Positions 20,700 through 36,999 of a stretch of 64,000 nt of DNA are shown piece after piece. The stretch is from Candidatus Pyrohabitans jungbluthii. Its GTDB lineage: Archaea > Hydrothermarchaeota > Hydrothermarchaeia > Hydrothermarchaeales > BMS3B. Position 1 is the first letter of the stretch. Every line of letters begins with the position of its first letter. Both the position numbers and the translations under genes were made by a program. The stretch covers positions 1-64,000 of the forward strand of contig MTMD02000005.1 of assembly GCA_002010065.2 (NCBI GenBank), given 5' to 3'. Under the pieces are notes generated by a model, which had not been told where the DNA came from, did not search any database, and saw only the letters and a program-made list of their open reading frames with translations.

Positions 20700-22268
20700 A
20701 TGCAAACCTGGCGGTTGCTGGACACAGGCAAGCGGAGCGCCGCTGAGAACTTAGCTTTGGACGAGGCGCTGCTTCTTGCGAGGGCGAGGCATTCTTCGCC
20801 TAACACGCTGCGTTTTCTTCAGTTCTCGCCCCACGCCGCGCTTGTGGGGTTTCATCAGAGTGTTGAACTGGAGATTCGCGAGGATTTTTGCAAACAGGCG
20901 GGCATAGATATAAACCGCCGCATTACCGGGGGAGGAGCGCTGTACTTCGACGAGTCGCAGCTCGGATGGGAGATTATCGCCCCTCGAGGCTATGAAGCTT
21001 TTCCGAAACGTGTGGAGGAGCTCTACGAGGTGATATGTAAAGGAGCAGTTCGCGGATTGAAAAACCTCGGGATAAACGCAAGCTTCCGTCCGAAGAACGA
21101 CATAGAGGTCAACGGAAGGAAGATATCTGGCACAGGAGGGGCACTTGAGGAGGACGTCTTTCTGTTCCAGGGCACGCTGCTCATGGATTTCGACGTCGAA
21201 ACCATGCTGAAGGCGCTGCGCATACCCACGGAGAAGCTCAAGGACAAGGAGATAGAATCGGTGAAGGAGCGCGTTACCTGCGTTAAGTGGGAGCTTGGCT
21301 ACGTGCCGCCTCTGGAGGAGGTGAAGCGCGCTCTCATGCTTGGGTTTGCCCAGGAGTTTAACCTGCGCTTCGAGGAAGGCGAGCTTACCCGACCCGAAGA
21401 AGAACTTTACGCGAAGCTTCTACCAAAGTTTAAATCGCAGGCTTGGGTTTACGGCGTTCGCCGTGCGCCAGAGCAGCGAGCCACGCTGCGCGCTGCGAAA
21501 AAAACTCCGGGTGGGCTTATTCGTGCCCAGCTAGTGGTGGACGCAAAGAATGAGCGCATTCACTTTGCTCTAATCACTGGCGACTTTTTCGCCTACCCAA
21601 AGCGGGCCATCCTCGACCTTGAGGCTAGGCTTAAGGATGCGAGCGCTGCACCAGAGGAAGTAGAGGCTACAATAAGGCGCTTCTTCTCTGAGCGAGAGGT
21701 TGAGATCCCCGGTGCGAGCGTGGACGACTTTGTTGAGGTGGTGCTGACAGCGCTTGCCAAGCTCAGGCTGAAGAAGTATGGCATCGACATAGAGGAGGCG
21801 AATCGGGTATTTACAGTGGTGGAGGACTTTGAGGGCATTGCTAAGCCAAAGGCGCTGCTTTTACCCTACTGCGCCAAGGCAAAGGACTGCGACCTTAGAT
21901 ATAAAAACGCTTGCAGAAAGTGCGGGCGCTGCACTGTTGGCAGAGCGTATGAGCTGGCGGACGAGCTGGGCTTAGAGGCGATTACCATTGTGAACTACGA
22001 GCACCTGGAGGAGACGCTTCGCAGCCTGCGCGAGCGCGGCGTCGACTCTTTCATCGGCACGTGCTGCGAGAGCTTCTTCATAAAGCATCAGCGCGACTTT
22101 GAGCGCCTTGGCTTGAAGGGGGTGCTCGTGGATATAGACAACACCACCTGCTACGACCTTGGCAAGGTGAGGGAGGCGAAGAAGGGCAGGTTCAGGGAGG
22201 AGACGACGCTTAAGCTTGAACTTCTTGAGAAGGTGTTGAGGTTGAAGGTAGACCAGGGCAACTCCTAA
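20700..22268 (+). CDS. Lipoate-protein ligase A fused to DUF116
   Basis: 522 residues. Residues 1-~240 are a BPL/LplA ligase with the lipoyl-AMP loop NRRITGGGALYFDE and the lysine in GRKISGTGGA. Residues ~240-340 look like the ligase accessory domain. From ~340 a DUF116 module carries a cysteine set CAKAKDCDLRYKNACRKCGRC and GTCCESFF that likely binds metal or an iron-sulfur cluster. The ligase part should attach lipoate or octanoate to carrier proteins; the DUF116 role is unknown. The radical SAM gene downstream makes a joint role in cofactor assembly plausible. Confidence 0.85.
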   Translation: MQTWRLLDTGKRSAAENLALDEALLLARARHSSPNTLRFLQFSPHAALVGFHQSVELEIREDFCKQAGIDINRRITGGGALYFDESQLGWEIIAPRGYEAFPKRVEELYEVICKGAVRGLKNLGINASFRPKNDIEVNGRKISGTGGALEEDVFLFQGTLLMDFDVETMLKALRIPTEKLKDKEIESVKERVTCVKWELGYVPPLEEVKRALMLGFAQEFNLRFEEGELTRPEEELYAKLLPKFKSQAWVYGVRRAPEQRATLRAAKKTPGGLIRAQLVVDAKNERIHFALITGDFFAYPKRAILDLEARLKDASAAPEEVEATIRRFFSEREVEIPGASVDDFVEVVLTALAKLRLKKYGIDIEEANRVFTVVEDFEGIAKPKALLLPYCAKAKDCDLRYKNACRKCGRCTVGRAYELADELGLEAITIVNYEHLEETLRSLRERGVDSFIGTCCESFFIKHQRDFERLGLKGVLVDIDNTTCYDLGKVREAKKGRFREETTLKLELLEKVLRLKVDQGNS

Positions 22269-22412: not shown

Positions 22413-24152
22413 ATGGCAGCGATGGAAGAGGACCACCTGGAGTTCCAGCTGAAACAGGTTAACCCTGAGGAGACGCTGGAGGAGCAGTTTGTTAGAAACA
22501 AGCAGACCTACCTGTTCTACAAGTTAGCGTGGATACAGGAATTCTTTGATAAAAAGAAGCTCGCACAGGAGCTGGCTTTTCTGGTTATGATGATATACAT
22601 CTACGACTTTATAGACCGCCTTGGCATGCGCTTCGCTGATCGAATTCTCAACTTCCTGTCCTTTACAGGCTGGCCACTGGACAAGTTCCGCTCCCTTATG
22701 GGACTCAACCTTGAAGCCAAGATAGCCATGGCTGTTGCGCTTGAGTATCCCGAGAAAACCCAGGAGGAGCAGGAGAAGATTGTAGAGCTGGTAACCACCG
22801 CCTACTCATGGCTCGGTTTGGCGAGGGAGCAGGAGTGGGACATTGCTCGCGTTGTAAAGCAGAAGCGATGGCTGTACTCGCTTCTCAACTCAGAGCCGGA
22901 GCAGAAGCGCCGCGAGCTCATTGAGAAGCTGCGCGAGGAGGGAGGAAAGCGAGTAGAGCTCAACCTTGTGAACATCGGCATAGTGCCCACCGAGCTATGC
23001 CCCAACAGGTGCCGCTTCTGCTTGGCGGCGTGGAAGGCGAGTTGCGAGGAGAGGATAGGGCGAAGCATAAGCGAAGAGGAGTTTGAGGTTATAGCGGACG
23101 AGGTTATAAACTTCGCCGACGAGCACTCGCTCATCGTTACGGTAACCGGCGGCGAGCCGTTCTTAGAGCTGGAACGTGTGCTCTACCTAGTGAAGCATGC
23201 ACGCTCTCGCTTGGATATAACCACCAGCGCCTACTGGGCTCGCGATATTGGCAAAGCTAGGGAGATCTTGGCAAAGCTGCGCGATGCCGCGAAGGAAAAC
23301 CGCAATGAGAACTTCAAGTTCACGTTGCAGGTTAGCCTGGACGCCTTCCATCAGGAGGTGTTCTTTGAGAAGGGCGAGTTTGTGCAGAACGTGCCCATAG
23401 AGTGCATAATTAACCTGCTGAAGCTGACGCAGGAGGAGTTCCCGGAGATTGAGGTGGTGCTTCTTACCAAGCTTACATCCTACGAGGATCCCCTTGCAAG
23501 GCTCATAAAGCTGCTGGAGAAGCAGGGGATGAAGGTCAAGCTTACGCGAAAGGTGACTCAGCCCGGGGTGACTGTGAGCCTCCTGGACGAGGAGCGCAAT
23601 CTCGTAGCGAAGCCTGCGCTGCTCAAGGCTTACCTCGAGTTTGAGGGTACTGAGGGCAAGCCGGTGCTTATCTTCTACACTGTCGTGGAGAGCATGGGCA
23701 AGGCCTCAGCGCTGGACGCCTTCGAGTTTCCTGGATTCAGAGAGCAGGTGCAGGAGCTTCTCAAGGGCAAGAGTGAGATTAAGCTTCCGCTTATAGGCCT
23801 CGAGGTGAGCGACGACGGCAACGTTTACCCTGGGGCACATTCCCTCTACGCGTGGAGCGCTGGCAACCTCCTCGAAGAGGGATTAGAGGATATATATGAG
23901 CGCCTGAGCTATGACCCTCTCATAATCGCCCTCGCCGAAGCACCAGAGAAGATTTTCGCAATAGCAAAGGAGGTGGAGGGCGAACGTATTGACGTGATTG
24001 CCGTGAAGGAGTCCTCACCTTTAGCGGCGGCGTACAAGATTTTAGAAGCCCCCTGGATGCGCCTGTATATCACGCGACGCCTTCTCGGTGAGCCTCAGGA
24101 TAAGGCACAGGAGGAGTACCAGAAATACAAGGAGGAGTACCGCCCAGAATAA
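22413..24152 (+). CDS. Large radical SAM protein of unknown function
   Basis: 579 residues. Residues 1-~185 are helical and include a hydrophobic stretch (LAFLVMMIYIYDFIDRLG). The radical SAM cluster motif is CPNRCRFC near residue 195, with GGEPFLELERV as the GGEP motif. The C-terminal part has no Cys-rich SPASM knot, only NVYPGAHSLYAWSAGNL, where SPASM enzymes would carry ligands. A TATA-like CATATTTATT about 25-33 bases upstream suggests a leaderless start. The substrate is unknown. Neighbours are LplA-DUF116 before it and the peptide locus after it. Confidence 0.78.
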   Translation: MAAMEEDHLEFQLKQVNPEETLEEQFVRNKQTYLFYKLAWIQEFFDKKKLAQELAFLVMMIYIYDFIDRLGMRFADRILNFLSFTGWPLDKFRSLMGLNLEAKIAMAVALEYPEKTQEEQEKIVELVTTAYSWLGLAREQEWDIARVVKQKRWLYSLLNSEPEQKRRELIEKLREEGGKRVELNLVNIGIVPTELCPNRCRFCLAAWKASCEERIGRSISEEEFEVIADEVINFADEHSLIVTVTGGEPFLELERVLYLVKHARSRLDITTSAYWARDIGKAREILAKLRDAAKENRNENFKFTLQVSLDAFHQEVFFEKGEFVQNVPIECIINLLKLTQEEFPEIEVVLLTKLTSYEDPLARLIKLLEKQGMKVKLTRKVTQPGVTVSLLDEERNLVAKPALLKAYLEFEGTEGKPVLIFYTVVESMGKASALDAFEFPGFREQVQELLKGKSEIKLPLIGLEVSDDGNVYPGAHSLYAWSAGNLLEEGLEDIYERLSYDPLIIALAEAPEKIFAIAKEVEGERIDVIAVKESSPLAAAYKILEAPWMRLYITRRLLGEPQDKAQEEYQKYKEEYRPE

Positions 24153-24218
24153 TAAAATTATTCTATTTTGTATTACTATTTCCTAAATTTCCCCATTTCA
24201 ATACGTAATGGCACAAAG

Positions 24219-24228
24219 TTATAAATAT
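24219..24228 (+). promoter_or_regulatory. TATA box of the Cys-rich peptide locus
   Basis: TTATAAATAT stands 33-42 bases before the peptide ATG, allowing a start of transcription near 24248-24252 just ahead of the GGTGAT Shine-Dalgarno. It lies in the 108-base gap after the radical SAM gene, so the peptide has its own promoter. Confidence 0.6.
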
Positions 24229-24260
24229 CCCACAGAATCAAAAATAGTCAGGGTGATTAA

Positions 24261-24329
24261 ATGAAAATCGTGAAGAAGGAGAAGAAAGTCGCATATGCGA
24301 CCTGCAAGTGTCACAAGAGCTGCATGTAG
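24261..24329 (+). CDS. 22-residue Cys-rich peptide, likely precursor of a modified peptide
   Basis: It begins MKIVKKEKKVAYAT, a basic leader-like half, and ends CKCHKSCM, with three cysteines and a histidine in seven residues. A good Shine-Dalgarno (GGTGAT, 3 bases of spacing), its own TATA box and a T-rich terminator right after the stop all argue it is a real, separately expressed gene. A 46-residue CxxC protein and a radical SAM/SPASM enzyme with a PqqD-like front domain follow on the same strand, the arrangement of radical-SAM RiPP clusters. The modification and function are unknown. Confidence 0.75.
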   Translation: MKIVKKEKKVAYATCKCHKSCM

Positions 24330-24330
24330 C

Positions 24331-24348
24331 TCTTTTTCTTTTATTTTT
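24331..24348 (+). terminator. T-rich terminator after the peptide gene
   Basis: TCTTTTTCTTTTATTTTT begins 1 base after the peptide's stop region and ends just before the next Shine-Dalgarno. T-runs end archaeal transcripts. Partial read-through here would give much more peptide mRNA than enzyme mRNA, as expected for a precursor. Confidence 0.6.
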
Positions 24349-24359
24349 GAGGTGATGGC

Positions 24360-24500
24360 ATGGACTTAACCGAAGAGATTCGAGCGAGAGTGTGCAAGCG
24401 CTGCGACTTCTACAAAGAGGGTGAAACTCTAGAGTGCGCCGCCTTTAAGACGGCAAAGCGCTTGGTTGAGCAGGGCAGGATTAGTTTGGACGAGATATAA
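24360..24500 (+). CDS. 46-residue CxxC protein in the peptide locus
   Basis: The start has GAGGTGAT a few bases ahead. MDLTEEIRARVCKRCDFYKEG has Cys12-x2-Cys15, and ECAAF gives a third Cys26; the end is helical (KTAKRLVEQGRISLDEI). It could bind zinc or an iron-sulfur cluster with another ligand or as a dimer, deliver substrate or electrons to the radical SAM enzyme, or be a second substrate. The family is not recognised. Confidence 0.7.
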   Translation: MDLTEEIRARVCKRCDFYKEGETLECAAFKTAKRLVEQGRISLDEI

Positions 24501-24513
24501 ACTGCGCATTGCC

Positions 24514-25695
24514 ATGTACCCCAGACTTAAGAACTGTGTGCTTCGCGCAGGCGAGGGCTATTTTCTTTACAACTACGTTGAGGATGAGGTTTACGAGCTT
24601 GACCTCGAAGCGATGGAGCTGCTGCGCCGCTTCACAGGGAAAAACAGCCTCGAAGCTCTTGCCCGTGAATTTGGAGAGAAAGAGGTAAGGGAGGCGGTGG
24701 AGTACCTTCTGAGCGAGGGGTGCCTCGTTGATGAGCGTTGCGAGGATGCGCCGCAAAGCTTCGCCGTCGAGGGCTTTACACCATCGCTGCGCTACCTCCA
24801 GCTTCACATCACAGAGCGGTGCAACTTAGCATGCAGGCACTGCTACCTGGGCGAGAAGTCGCAGGTTGATCTGCCCAAGGAGCTGGCGTTTAAGGCTGTG
24901 GAGGAGTTCTCCAGCTTTGGATGGAAGCTTTTAATCACAGGGGGCGAGCCCCTGCTTTCCCCATACTTCTGGAAGCTGGCAAGCTTCGCTTCTCGCCAAG
25001 GGGTACGCGTGGTGGTGCTCACCAACGGCACGCTTGTCAGCGAAGCTACGGCGAAGAAGCTGGCTGAGCATGTGCATGAGGTGCAGATTAGTTTAGACGG
25101 CATTAAGCGTGGGCATGAAGTGCTACGTGGAGAGGGAAGTTTCGCCAAAGCTGTGCGCGGAATAAGGGCGGCGAGCAAATATATGAGGGTGAGTGTTGCT
25201 ACCATGATTCACCGGGAGAATCTAAAAGAATTCCCGCAGCTTGAGAAGCTTGTTAAAAGCCTGGGTGTAGAGGAGTGGAGCCTGGATGTACCCTCGCCGA
25301 AGGGGAGTCTGCTGGAAAATACAGAGCTTCTTCCACCCCGCGAAGAGGCGGCGCGGATATACTCGAGGTACGGCTTCTCCTCAGGCGTGCATGAGGGCAG
25401 CGCCGACTATGCGTGCGGCGCTCATCTGTGTTCAGTCAATGTCAAGGGCGAGGTGACGAAGTGCGGATTCTTTGAGCGCGGAGTGGGCAACCTTGCAGAA
25501 ATTTCACTTAAGGAGGGCTGGGAGAGGATAGTTGAGAACTACCTGCCAAAGCTGAGCGAACTCGCTTGTGCAGGTTGCAAATACCTCAGCGCCTGCAGGG
25601 GCGGGTGCAGATTCAGGGCGCTAAGCGAGGGAGACTTTTGGGGCAAAGATAGCTTTCTATGCCTTCTCCACTCAAAGATGCACAGTCTTCAGTGA
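24514..25695 (+). CDS. Peptide-modifying radical SAM/SPASM enzyme with PqqD-like N-terminal domain
   Basis: 393 residues from the ATG 14 bases after the CxxC gene. Residues ~5-75 (NCVLRAGEGYFLYNYVEDEVYELDLEAMELL..) resemble a PqqD/RiPP-recognition domain that binds leader peptides. The radical SAM cysteines are 103, 107 and 110 in CNLACRHC, and GGEPLLSP is the GGEP motif. A C-terminal SPASM set has CGAHLCSVN, KCGFFERG, CAGCKYLSACRGGC and a late Cys, enough for two auxiliary clusters. The peptide at 24261 is the likely substrate; the product (thioether, epimer or other) cannot be predicted. An in-frame TTG at 24466 is a less likely start. Confidence 0.85.
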   Translation: MYPRLKNCVLRAGEGYFLYNYVEDEVYELDLEAMELLRRFTGKNSLEALAREFGEKEVREAVEYLLSEGCLVDERCEDAPQSFAVEGFTPSLRYLQLHITERCNLACRHCYLGEKSQVDLPKELAFKAVEEFSSFGWKLLITGGEPLLSPYFWKLASFASRQGVRVVVLTNGTLVSEATAKKLAEHVHEVQISLDGIKRGHEVLRGEGSFAKAVRGIRAASKYMRVSVATMIHRENLKEFPQLEKLVKSLGVEEWSLDVPSPKGSLLENTELLPPREEAARIYSRYGFSSGVHEGSADYACGAHLCSVNVKGEVTKCGFFERGVGNLAEISLKEGWERIVENYLPKLSELACAGCKYLSACRGGCRFRALSEGDFWGKDSFLCLLHSKMHSLQ

Positions 25696-33169: not shown

Positions 33170-33254
33170 GGTAATGGTTCACGGATATACGAAGCTCTGA
33201 GCGCAGCGAAGGGTTTTGGGTGAGCAATAGCCAACCGCATAGTTGCTGTTAGGT
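33170..33254 (-). repeat. attC-like recombination element A (putative)
   Basis: On the minus strand, CACCTAACAGCAACTATGCGGTTGG..., overlapping the stop codon of the nuclease-helicase gene, aligns with element B (35171-35254): ACAG-x-x-A-x-TATG-x-GGTT-x-GCTAT-x-x-CTCACC-x-AAAA at one end and CTTC-x-x-ATATCC near the other. ACCTAAC fits the integron R'' consensus RYYYAAC. The length of 85 matches B's 84. Its outer end (CATTACC) does not fit a good R' site. No integrase gene is in the window. Confidence 0.5.
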
Positions 33255-35147
33255 GACGTAATCATTATATATCTTATTTAATAATTCAGCCGTTTCTTTA
33301 TCTTCACAGATAATGTAAGTACCTTTTATTCCTCTTGTCAAAAATATCCTATATCTATTCTTTAAAAGAAACAGCGCTTTTTCTTTTGCTTCTTTGTTTC
33401 CATTTTTCGCCTGAGAGAATAAATCTTTTAAACTTGGCTTTCCAATATTATCTTCACAATTGTCTCCGACTTCCCATTTGTTGTTTCTAATAACATAATC
33501 TCTGCCCCAAATTATGCCAGCATAATCAGTTTCAAAGCCTTGGCATCCGTAAATCGAGGCACATTTGTCAAGTTTGTTGGATTCCCCTCGTACCCAAAAA
33601 GGAACATAGTCCCTTTTAGGATCCATCAACCAATAAATTTTTTTGTTAAAATTTTTATAGATGTTTAAACCGGAGTAAAGTGGGTATCCTATTCTTAAAT
33701 TTTTTATTGAAGAATGATTTTGAAAATCTCCTGGCGATTCTGTAAATGCTGCGATTAATGCAACTTTATTGTTTATTGCTTTGCTTTTCAGTGCATTATA
33801 CATTTCATCAAAATCTGTAAATACCCTAAAATCATAGTTTTTCTTCCATGGGTCCACTAAGTCTTTGTTAATATTCACGGGACCAGTGATTAATTTTTCT
33901 ACAAAAGCATGATAAGTCTCGCCGCCCTGAACCCTGTAAAATCCTTTCAGATACCTTTCTTTTACATACTTCCCTTGTTTTTGTGCTTCGTATTTAAAGT
34001 TTTCCGTAGTTCCTTCTTCTTCAGCATTAAGAATTTGTCCTTCATCGTAGAAAAAGACTGTAATTCTTCCTCTTTGAACAGCATAGGTAATGTTTCTTTT
34101 GGTCATTCTTTGTGCCTCGTCATAAATTACAAGATCAAAGCTTCCATTAAAATTTTGTTCTGCAACTCCTCTAAATCTAGCTCTGGGTCCTACTGAATAA
34201 AATTTAATTGGGTTTGATAAGCCTCTTTGTATAGAATCAAAAATCTCTCTTATAGAGTTTATCAATCTATTATTGCGATAAGCTAAAATTGTTTGATATT
34301 TTAAAGAAAGAGCGGAAAGCATAAGATGAATAGCAACTAAAGTTTTCCCGGAACCTGGAGCTCCTTGTACCAAATAAATAATATCTTTTTTACCATTTCT
34401 TAAGTCTGCAATTATCTCTTCTATGAGCTTTAATTGTTCCTCCGATAATCCCCATCCATTTTGTGCTAAAGTTTCATAGCTTCTTTGTTTTATTTCCTCA
34501 AAGTGGTTTTTTATTGAATCAAAAAGTTGTTTGTTCTGAATATAAGTGCCATTTAAAAATTTTTCAATTGTCTTATTATCCAGTGATGTTTTTAAACAAC
34601 CTATTATAAATCGTTGGAATTGAACAGTATCATTTTTAAAGAAAACATTACCATTAAAGTTGATATTAATATTGTTTTTATCAGCATTGTAAAATAATAC
34701 ACATCCTGAAAAGTTAAAATTTTTAGATTCTGAATGAGAAAATCTCAATTTACCTATGTAATTTTCCAACTGATATTCAGGATGACTTGAAATTCCTATA
34801 TTACTCCGAACCAAAAAGTCTGTTACCTTATTAGCAAATGTCCATCCTTTCAACTCCGCAACAATAACCGCGGGATTACCATTACTATTAGCACCAAATA
34901 TCAATAAATCAATACGTTCATTACTAAAAGGCAAACGATATTCAAAGGTTACATCAAAATCAAGTAAGTTTTGATTGTTAAACACTTGTTTGAGGTATGC
35001 AATTGAAGATTTCCAAGCATTAATTTGTTGTATATCGGCATCCTCTCCATAAACATTCCAAAATCCATTTTTAAATGTACTCAACAAGTCATCATCATTT
35101 TTTTGTATAAAATCTCTTATTTTACCAACATATATTTGATTTTTCAT
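33249..35147 (-). CDS. PD-(D/E)xK nuclease fused to a DUF2075-type SF1 helicase
   Basis: 632 residues. An N-terminal nuclease-like domain has NERIDLLIFG and, 15 residues on, VIVAELKGW, the Asp and Glu-x-Lys of PD-(D/E)xK enzymes. The helicase part has Walker A GAPGSGKTLVAIH near residue 265, Walker B LVIYDEAQRM, and late motifs including QGFETDYAGIIWGRD and YRIFLTRGIKGTYI. The gene is strongly AT-rich, with AAT/AAA-heavy codons unlike its neighbours, and sits between two attC-like elements. With the OLD nuclease upstream it resembles a two-gene anti-phage module. Function in defence is inferred. Confidence 0.85.
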   Translation of the reverse strand: MKNQIYVGKIRDFIQKNDDDLLSTFKNGFWNVYGEDADIQQINAWKSSIAYLKQVFNNQNLLDFDVTFEYRLPFSNERIDLLIFGANSNGNPAVIVAELKGWTFANKVTDFLVRSNIGISSHPEYQLENYIGKLRFSHSESKNFNFSGCVLFYNADKNNININFNGNVFFKNDTVQFQRFIIGCLKTSLDNKTIEKFLNGTYIQNKQLFDSIKNHFEEIKQRSYETLAQNGWGLSEEQLKLIEEIIADLRNGKKDIIYLVQGAPGSGKTLVAIHLMLSALSLKYQTILAYRNNRLINSIREIFDSIQRGLSNPIKFYSVGPRARFRGVAEQNFNGSFDLVIYDEAQRMTKRNITYAVQRGRITVFFYDEGQILNAEEEGTTENFKYEAQKQGKYVKERYLKGFYRVQGGETYHAFVEKLITGPVNINKDLVDPWKKNYDFRVFTDFDEMYNALKSKAINNKVALIAAFTESPGDFQNHSSIKNLRIGYPLYSGLNIYKNFNKKIYWLMDPKRDYVPFWVRGESNKLDKCASIYGCQGFETDYAGIIWGRDYVIRNNKWEVGDNCEDNIGKPSLKDLFSQAKNGNKEAKEKALFLLKNRYRIFLTRGIKGTYIICEDKETAELLNKIYNDYVT

Positions 35148-35170
35148 TTCCTATTCCCCCAGATTATGTT

Positions 35171-35254
35171 GCCTAACATTCCGGGGATATGTGAAGTTCG
35201 CCCGATAGGGCAAATTTTGGTGAGTGATAGCGAACCACATACTCACTGTTGTCC
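35171..35254 (-). repeat. attC-like recombination element B (putative)
   Basis: The minus strand reads from GGACAAC (35254-35248) through TATGTGGTTCGC and GCGAACTTCACATA, imperfect inverted arms, to GTTAGGC (35177-35171), which fits the integron R' consensus GTTRRRY. The element lies between the two defence genes, 24 bases before the nuclease-helicase start. It is about 84 bases and clearly related to element A. A MITE- or REP-like repeat is the alternative. Confidence 0.5.
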
Positions 35255-35319
35255 GAGTGCGTTGACACCGAAGCGAAGCGGAGAGTTCGGCTCGATGGTG
35301 ATATGTCTATCAATCTACA

Positions 35320-36999
35320 TCATTTTAACTCTTCCTGTAGTGGAAAAACATTTTGGTCTTCAATAAAATCTTGCTTTATCTCATTTATAAATTCTGGAAT
35401 GTAATCGGGGAACTCATCAATAATCTTCTTAACAATATATCTATGTTTTTGAGCTTTTCTCAAACCCAACTCTTCAGATTCTCTTTTAAACTCCTCATAT
35501 CTATTATTAAGCCCGTTACTTTGGCAGTATTTCTCGAAATCCATTTTTGTTGCTGTCTCAAAGTTATTGTTAAATATTAACAATTTCTGCCCAAATCTGC
35601 CGTTTATGAGCTTAAATACTTTGCTATCTTCGATTTTTTCAATATTGTCAACTGAAATATCAAAACATTCTGCAATAGTTTCATTGTTTCTTTTATTTGA
35701 AGATTTATCTATATCATTATCAAAAACAACTAACATTGGAATATTAAATTTGTAGAACAATCTCCAATATTTTGGTATCTGAGGCTTCCCTACAACCCCT
35801 ATGACAGATATGCCTCTTTTATTTATATCAATCCCTGCTTTAGTTAATAAAAGAGGAAAGCATAATTCTTCTGTATCTCCTTCAACTAATATAATTTTCT
35901 TTGCAAAAAATGCTTCTTTTAACCTTTCGTTGGATGTAAGAGCATAAAAGTCGGTGATGTTTTCTACTGTAGATTTCCCTGCGGCACCAGTTTCATTTGA
36001 AAATTTGACTAAATCATTTTTAGAAACTTGTATTATCTTTGTACCTTTTTCTTTTGTTTTGTAAACAAGAGCTATATTTTCAAAATGCTCTGTTTCAATA
36101 AATGTTGATGAATGGGTCGTAATCATTATTTGTATATTTGAATTTCTAACTATTTCTTTGAAAATTTTAAGCAAGTGTCTTCTTGCTTGTGGATGCATAT
36201 AAATTTCAGGTTCTTCAATGATCAACAAACCTTGAGCTTCATTTTTAAAATTTTTGGCATAAGCTCTCAATAGAGAGAGAATAATAAGGTTTCTGCTACC
36301 TTCACCTAATTCTTCAATATCAATATCGTAATCATCACCCAAGATTTTATCATTTGTAAGGATGTTAATGGTTTTGAAGTAATTTAATGGAGAAAACGGC
36401 TTGAAATCAACTTTTAATTTATATGATGAATCTGCTTGCATTTCCTCAAATAATACGCAGAAATCTTCTTTAAATTGTTTAAATTCGTCAATTTTTTCTA
36501 GAATTTCCATAACTTCGTTAAATTTACTTTCTAATTCTTCTGTTAAATTTCTTTTTCTAACGAGTTTATTAAATGAGTGCGCAATTTTCCCCATCAAAGC
36601 CCATTTATTAAATGAAAGTGTTTGAGGAATACCTCTTTCAGCTGAAAGATAATTACAAGGGAAGTCTTCTTTTATATTGCTCTGATTTGACCTAATTGGA
36701 TTTCCATTTTCATCAAAGTATTTAGGCCAGCCTTTTTGGCTGTTAAATTCAACTCTTCTGCCATTATCAAACTTAATGGTTATTTCAATTGGATTGTTAG
36801 TATTCCTCATATAAAAATCTATTGAATCAATATTTTTACCCCACCATCCTTCTCCTAAAATATTATTAATAGCTCTAACTATATTCGATTTACCAGCATT
36901 ATTAGCTCCAACTAAAACCATCAGTCCGCTCTCGGGAAACCAGAATTCTAAATCTTTAATTGAACGAAAGTTTTTTATATGAACTTTTTTAATTTTCAT
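35320..36999 (-). CDS. OLD family ATPase with TOPRIM nuclease domain
   Basis: 559 residues. N-terminal ABC/SMC-type ATPase: KIKKVHIKNFRSIKDLEF, Walker A VGANNAGKSN, signature-like GEGSRNLIILSLL, Walker B LLIIEEPEIYMHP, and ITTHSSTFIE. C-terminal TOPRIM: IILVEGDTEEL and VVFDNDID hold the metal-binding acids. OLD nucleases work in anti-phage systems; with a UvrD-like helicase they form Gabija. Here the helicase partner is DUF2075-type with its own nuclease. Its start overlaps an hsdS remnant by 11 bases, suggesting past membership of a restriction locus. AT-rich, foreign codon use. Confidence 0.9.
   Translation of the reverse strand: MKIKKVHIKNFRSIKDLEFWFPESGLMVLVGANNAGKSNIVRAINNILGEGWWGKNIDSIDFYMRNTNNPIEITIKFDNGRRVEFNSQKGWPKYFDENGNPIRSNQSNIKEDFPCNYLSAERGIPQTLSFNKWALMGKIAHSFNKLVRKRNLTEELESKFNEVMEILEKIDEFKQFKEDFCVLFEEMQADSSYKLKVDFKPFSPLNYFKTINILTNDKILGDDYDIDIEELGEGSRNLIILSLLRAYAKNFKNEAQGLLIIEEPEIYMHPQARRHLLKIFKEIVRNSNIQIMITTHSSTFIETEHFENIALVYKTKEKGTKIIQVSKNDLVKFSNETGAAGKSTVENITDFYALTSNERLKEAFFAKKIILVEGDTEELCFPLLLTKAGIDINKRGISVIGVVGKPQIPKYWRLFYKFNIPMLVVFDNDIDKSSNKRNNETIAECFDISVDNIEKIEDSKVFKLINGRFGQKLLIFNNNFETATKMDFEKYCQSNGLNNRYEEFKRESEELGLRKAQKHRYIVKKIIDEFPDYIPEFINEIKQDFIEDQNVFPLQEELK

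Follow-up and report, generated by a model that had tools for sequence, protein, structure and literature searches.

A likely new radical-SAM RiPP family in archaea: a conserved Cys-rich peptide, a CxxC protein and a radical SAM/SPASM enzyme

The three-gene locus

The window analysed here is a stretch of 64,000 nucleotides from a Hydrothermarchaeota genome of 1.99 Mb, in which the genes for a short peptide, a CxxC protein and a radical SAM/SPASM enzyme form a single locus at 24219-25695 (Table 1). An earlier note, made from the sequence alone, had placed all three open reading frames where we find them, and had assigned the peptide a TATA box, a Shine-Dalgarno sequence and a T-rich terminator. 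These elements can be seen in the sequence, with the qualification that the first is only TATA-like (TTATAAATAT, at about 24218-24227 by sequence reading) and the last a probable, partial terminator. The peptide had also been called unusually short, which is an overstatement given PqqA, whose size is similar. The GGTGAT immediately 5' of the peptide ATG recurs ahead of solitary peptide copies elsewhere, and a similar T-rich tract follows the second peptide copy of the same genome; the enzyme locus of another genome, G012, has none. The enzyme start at ATG 24514 is assigned from homologues, the longest open reading frame opening earlier, at TTG 24466.

Table 1. Features of the peptide locus, in window coordinates
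Feature	Position	Strand	Basis
Promoter region: TATA-like TTATAAATAT and GGTGAT Shine-Dalgarno ahead of the peptide ATG	24215..24260	+	Direct sequence reading
Precursor peptide gene, 22 aa, MKIVKKEKKVAYATCKCHKSCM	24261..24329	+	42 homologous peptides; purifying selection
Peptide parts: leader MKIVKKEKKVAYAT, core CKCHKSCM	within 24261..24329	+	
T-rich tract, probable (partial) terminator separating the peptide from downstream genes	24330..24347	+	Sequence reading
CxxC...C partner protein, 46 aa	24360..24500	+	Co-occurs with the enzyme (394 archaeal genomes searched)
Radical SAM/SPASM enzyme, 393 aa	24514..25695	+	Domain searches, homologue alignment, structure models
Enzyme domains: predicted N-terminal RRE, residues ~1-75; radical SAM core, ~99-246; SPASM cysteines, C301-C383			

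At 22413-24149 lies the gene for a 579-aa radical SAM protein whose N-terminal region is large and which reaches no NCBIfam cut-off; it adjoins the peptide locus in two genera and Ccm genes in G006 and G008. We rejected this protein as a fourth component because it is not co-distributed with the peptide system: present in 12 of 23 genomes, it occurs without the enzyme (G006, G008, G020) and is missing despite the enzyme (G018, G019). Elsewhere in the window, a Lipoate-protein ligase A/B catalytic domain with a C-terminal DUF116 fusion is encoded at 20700-22268, and an A+T-rich island at 33249-36999 holds an OLD/GajA-like AAA-TOPRIM protein and a Schlafen-type helicase (PDC-S41/Nhi-like), likely an anti-phage defence pair.

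Distribution of the trio and conservation of the peptide

When 394 archaeal genomes were searched with profiles (E at most 1e-50 for the enzyme, E at most 1e-3 for the CxxC protein), the two proteins were found in the same 16 genomes, plus one (G002) in which the enzyme is only a fragment cut by the contig end. Outside Hydrothermarchaeia each profile retrieves the same five genomes, namely four of one family, including Ferroglobus placidus (2,196,266 bp, PMC3236036) and Geoglobus ahangari (1,770,093 bp, PMC4600277), and G150, whose class (genomes of 2-8 Mb, here called Loki-like) we infer is likely Lokiarchaeia. By distribution, the CxxC protein is an obligate partner of the enzyme; its function is inferred only. 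Class-wide searches located the enzyme in 20 of 59 Archaeoglobi and 16 of 83 Loki-like genomes, with the CxxC protein within 1.5 kb in 18/20 and 12/16 of these loci and the peptide in 17/20 and 8/16, respectively. Two Archaeoglobi loci of f139 have the CxxC protein and no CKC peptide within 1.5 kb, and four deep Loki-like loci have neither CxxC protein nor peptide. The enzymes, identified in 48 archaeal genomes overall, form one group in the tree that is separate from own-genome paralogues, with the Loki-like and most Archaeoglobi members as clades; no relatives were found in the viral contigs searched. Because the trio recurs in three archaeal groups, it very probably represents an undescribed family of enzyme-modified peptides.

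The 42 distinct peptide homologues, from three archaeal classes, have in common an M-x-[I/V]-x-K leader followed by a CKC-x-x-x-C core: all 42 carry I or V at position 3 and K at position 5, and CKC is kept in 41. Two Archaeoglobi peptides start with V/GTG. Just before the final Cys, the Hydrothermarchaeia and Archaeoglobi peptides have S or T (one degenerate copy has G), and those of the Loki-like group have S, G, D or T. All 18 Hydrothermarchaeia peptides are 22 residues long, Archaeoglobi peptides are mostly of 20 (e.g. MRIRKVERRKNGICKCSVSC), and seven of the eight Loki-like peptides carry three tandem core repeats behind a single leader (e.g. MKIEKKEKITSAGCKCGGDCISTSCKCGGDCISISCKCGGDC), an arrangement that marks a RiPP precursor. 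The peptide is under strong purifying selection: substitutions are mostly synonymous (mean pS 0.93, pN 0.21; core pS 1.03, pN 0.13), and pN/pS is ~0.22 when all pairs are taken together, falling to 0.13 for the core. A heme-binding reading of CKCH was rejected, because the peptides of G018/G019, most of those from Archaeoglobi and all of the Loki-like ones have another residue in place of the His.

The peptide is a genuine gene and not a chance ORF: every Hydrothermarchaeia genome with a complete enzyme gene (11/11) encodes the 22-aa peptide, which adjoins the enzyme in eight (G000, G003, G004, G007, G012, G016, G018 and G019) and lies only elsewhere in the genome in G005, G010 and G021. Solitary copies were found by a pattern search of the 394 genomes; those far from an enzyme include G000:C8:187594, a pair each in G012 and G016, and the sole copies of G001, G005 and G021, and G010 has one as well. 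In G001 the peptide occurs without a detected enzyme, the genome being only 82% complete.

Some loci are irregular. In G007 (L012/L065) the enzyme-adjacent peptide has the degenerate core SCAQCHKGCM and a standard copy lies elsewhere in the genome; in its sister genome G005 the enzyme-adjacent peptide is missing. Contig C111 of G019 (L057/L071) carries a second peptide and CxxC gene at its end, just where an enzyme would begin, which suggests two loci in this genome. Beside a deep Loki-like enzyme (L181), on the minus strand relative to it, lies MKITRVSKKKKTAACACKKCC, possibly a divergent precursor without CKC.

Enzyme domains and relation to known families

Pfam recovers only the radical SAM core of the enzyme, plus a weak SPASM match. 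The SPASM pattern is complete (CX10GX4C...CX2CX5CX3C...C), satisfying the general form CX9-15GX4C...CX2CX5CX3C...C. Across 13 members, none of the seven SPASM cysteines varies; in most Archaeoglobi members CXC replaces CX2C. Pfam PqqD gave no sequence match in the N-terminus. When the N-terminal 95 residues were modelled alone (8 sequences, pLDDT 82.8), they adopted a strand-hairpin and three-helix layout as in PqqD, with lasso B1 plus leader (6jx3), TbiB1, SuiB, CteB and PqqD (5sxy) as the top Foldseek matches. Although the E-values are modest (best 3.8e-3), the list is consistent: the best matches are nearly all RRE domains, and the lasso B1 and TbiB1 entries carry a bound leader. The N-terminal domain is thus predicted by modelling to be a RiPP recognition element (RRE). 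The whole-enzyme model, of middling confidence (pLDDT 66.6), has SkfB, CteB, anSME and SuiB as best PDB matches, with viperins interleaved.

The earlier note had proposed a RiPP-type radical-SAM peptide cluster, to be refuted if the peptide were not conserved beside homologues of the enzyme or if the N-terminal domain were not RRE-like. Neither is the case: the peptide is conserved there in three classes and the domain models as an RRE fold. The identification of a radical SAM/SPASM enzyme is confirmed, and the cluster reading is supported by linkage, conservation and the RRE, the modification itself being inferred. Of the checks that had been suggested, synteny across genomes shows the trio linkage recurring, with exceptions, in Hydrothermarchaeia, Archaeoglobi and the Loki-like class, and a search of the small ORFs against Pfam and NCBIfam models gives nothing above cut-off. 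No family in these two collections covers any member of the trio, and none of the five divergent enzyme members tested reaches an NCBIfam equivalog cut-off. The locus therefore lies outside every named subfamily with a curated model that was scored.

Four known systems come closest. Ranthipeptides/SCIFF (CteA-CteB) likewise pair a Cys-rich precursor with a radical SAM/SPASM enzyme bearing an N-terminal RRE, and CteB is the second-best structural match, its PDB sequence match extending into the RRE region (profile positions 19-212). However, the precursor here has 20-22 residues as opposed to the six-Cys SCIFF peptide, a CxxC partner is added, and the enzyme falls below the NCBIfam PapB cut-off, with the SCIFF maturase model outside its 25 best matches. 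With sactipeptides (SkfA-SkfB, AlbA, StsB) the locus shares a Cys-based core, and SkfB ranks first among the enzyme's matches both by structure and by PDB sequence; the locus differs in that the enzyme is below the StsB and AlbA cut-offs, exporter and immunity genes are lacking, and the core is conserved across phyla. PqqA-PqqD-PqqE and mycofactocin offer a very short precursor, PqqD-type recognition and the conservation expected of a cofactor-like product, whereas the archaeal core is Cys-based and the enzyme scores far under the TIGR02109 and TIGR03962 cut-offs. PQQ and mycofactocin use a Glu/Tyr or Val/Tyr crosslink pair; the archaeal core has none. The highest NCBIfam scores for the enzyme, in the radical SAM domain, come from the heme-synthesis enzymes AhbC, AhbD and NirJ, but amount to 105-119 bits against cut-offs of 500-650, over a partial model alignment; to our knowledge these systems have no RRE or peptide gene. 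An archaeal RiPP survey (PMC12144867) reports ranthipeptide/sactipeptide clusters across Asgard and Euryarchaeota, and this locus is not named in the parts searched. Nor did we find the motif or the locus mentioned in the literature covered (preprints and most subscription journals were outside the scope of the search).

Proposed role of the peptide and rival explanations

The surroundings of the solitary peptide genes bear on function. In G000 the region comprises a thioredoxin-like gene, a UbiE-like methyltransferase, the peptide and CcmE; G001 has the same thioredoxin and methyltransferase, and its peptide lies ~3 kb from probable oxidase subunit genes (an assignment made by eye). One G012 copy adjoins CcmF, lying 3' of it and convergent to the next gene, and another sits between two thioredoxin-like genes. 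In G016 one copy adjoins CopA and a YHS-like protein and the other an M48 protease, 2-3 kb from CcmF, and the enzyme locus comes after a Trx-CcmF-CcdA-like operon. The Ferroglobus region encodes Met-rich and SHOCT proteins, a thioredoxin-like protein, the peptide, a rhodanese, DUF411 and a methyltransferase 65% identical to that of G000. A Ccm gene lies within 5 kb in 3 of 6 independent solitary regions of Hydrothermarchaeia; against a rough expectation of 1.8% per region this gives 1e-4, though the count is post hoc and rests on only 6 regions. As CcmF-type genes are near-universal in Hydrothermarchaeia (22/23 genomes), presence or absence of CcmF/CcmE is uninformative there. Counting against a strict cytochrome c role are the other neighbours of the G005/G007 and G021 copies, and G150, which has the peptide system and in which CcmF/Ccm was not found.

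We consider it likely that the locus represents a radical-SAM RiPP family not described before. The analysis shows linked and conserved genes, RRE and SPASM domains and a precursor-like architecture; the modification is inferred, and with it RiPP status in the strict chemical sense. The general criteria for a RiPP are met as regards a small precursor gene linked to and conserved with a modifying enzyme, a leader and repeatable core (the shared [I/V]-x-K leader, the Loki-like triple cores), and a leader recognition element (the N-terminal model versus RRE domains). In the mechanism we propose, the basic leader (M-x-I-x-K-I-x-K) would dock on the RRE domain, and the enzyme, using [4Fe-4S] clusters and SAM, would modify the CKC-x-x-x-C core. 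The favoured modification would be a thioether between the sulfur of a Cys and a carbon atom in a residue nearby, with the invariant Lys as a possible acceptor. A Cys thioether to an alpha or to a beta/gamma carbon is what defines sactipeptides and ranthipeptides; sequence does not reveal the bond type, and we put the chance of a thioether here at slightly less than even. A protease encoded outside the locus would remove the leader, and the CxxC protein may, as a guess, act as an iron-sulfur or zinc accessory or as a product carrier. The product would serve as a conserved cellular metal or thiol ligand, or as a redox aid. This role is inferred, and we put it forward tentatively, as more apt to prove wrong than right; we prefer it over an antibiotic because the core barely varies and solitary genes lie near ccm, thioredoxin-like and copper genes. 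On a bolder reading, which is no more than possible, this might be a widespread house-keeping archaeal RiPP, a metallo- or redox-peptide and not a weapon; the peptide, of 20-22 residues or three cores, could handle copper, heme or thiols, conceivably during maturation of extracytoplasmic electron-transfer proteins, and one enzyme locus may serve several scattered precursor genes.

One could instead argue that the enzyme really acts on the 46-aa CxxC protein and that the peptide is an unmodified metallothionein-like metal binder. The distributions of CxxC protein and enzyme coincide strictly, whereas solitary peptide copies are dispersed and some enzyme genes have no peptide nearby; a Cys-rich core could also bind metal unmodified. 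Yet a leader conserved in 42 peptides, separable from a core that is triplicated in one lineage, is precursor architecture, and the enzyme has an RRE; the enzyme-less G001 peptide lends only weak support, given the incomplete genome. We regard this alternative as unlikely.

An antimicrobial or signalling sactipeptide/ranthipeptide is likewise improbable: the enzyme architecture is the same as in SkfB and CteB, but the core is near-invariant within a class, no recurrent exporter or immunity gene lies next to the enzyme, and solitary copies are close to respiratory-maturation genes. Least plausible, and very unlikely, is an attenuation leader peptide governing downstream transcription. The T-rich tract between the peptide stop and the CxxC gene would fit; against it stand selection on the protein sequence, the convergent G012 copy 3' of CcmF, the G012 enzyme locus without a terminator, and triplicated cores, which make no sense for an attenuator.

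If the RiPP reading is right, this is a radical-SAM peptide family not catalogued before and recognisable by its three-gene signature. Direct tests are possible, since the enzyme-bearing genomes include the cultured Ferroglobus placidus and Geoglobus ahangari. The near-constant core, solitary precursors and cytochrome c and copper neighbours suggest a cofactor-like peptide, a role so far known for few RiPPs (PQQ, mycofactocin). Archaeal cytochrome c maturation proceeds without CcmD/H/I (PMC9084895), which makes additional archaeal factors encoded near Ccm genes interesting, notwithstanding that heterologous ccmABCEF is enough in a methanogen (PMC9084895).

Two further families occur near solitary peptides and Trx-like and CcmF genes in two phyla. 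One consists of conserved membrane proteins that carry an ACCAHH-like motif (L155:316-753, L055:12024-12620, L157:6539-7072, L081:9532-10476); the other, with an LDTHSGDL motif, adjoins it. Their Ferroglobus members have no Pfam or NCBIfam match, and both families recur near the peptide copies of G010, G012 and Ferroglobus.
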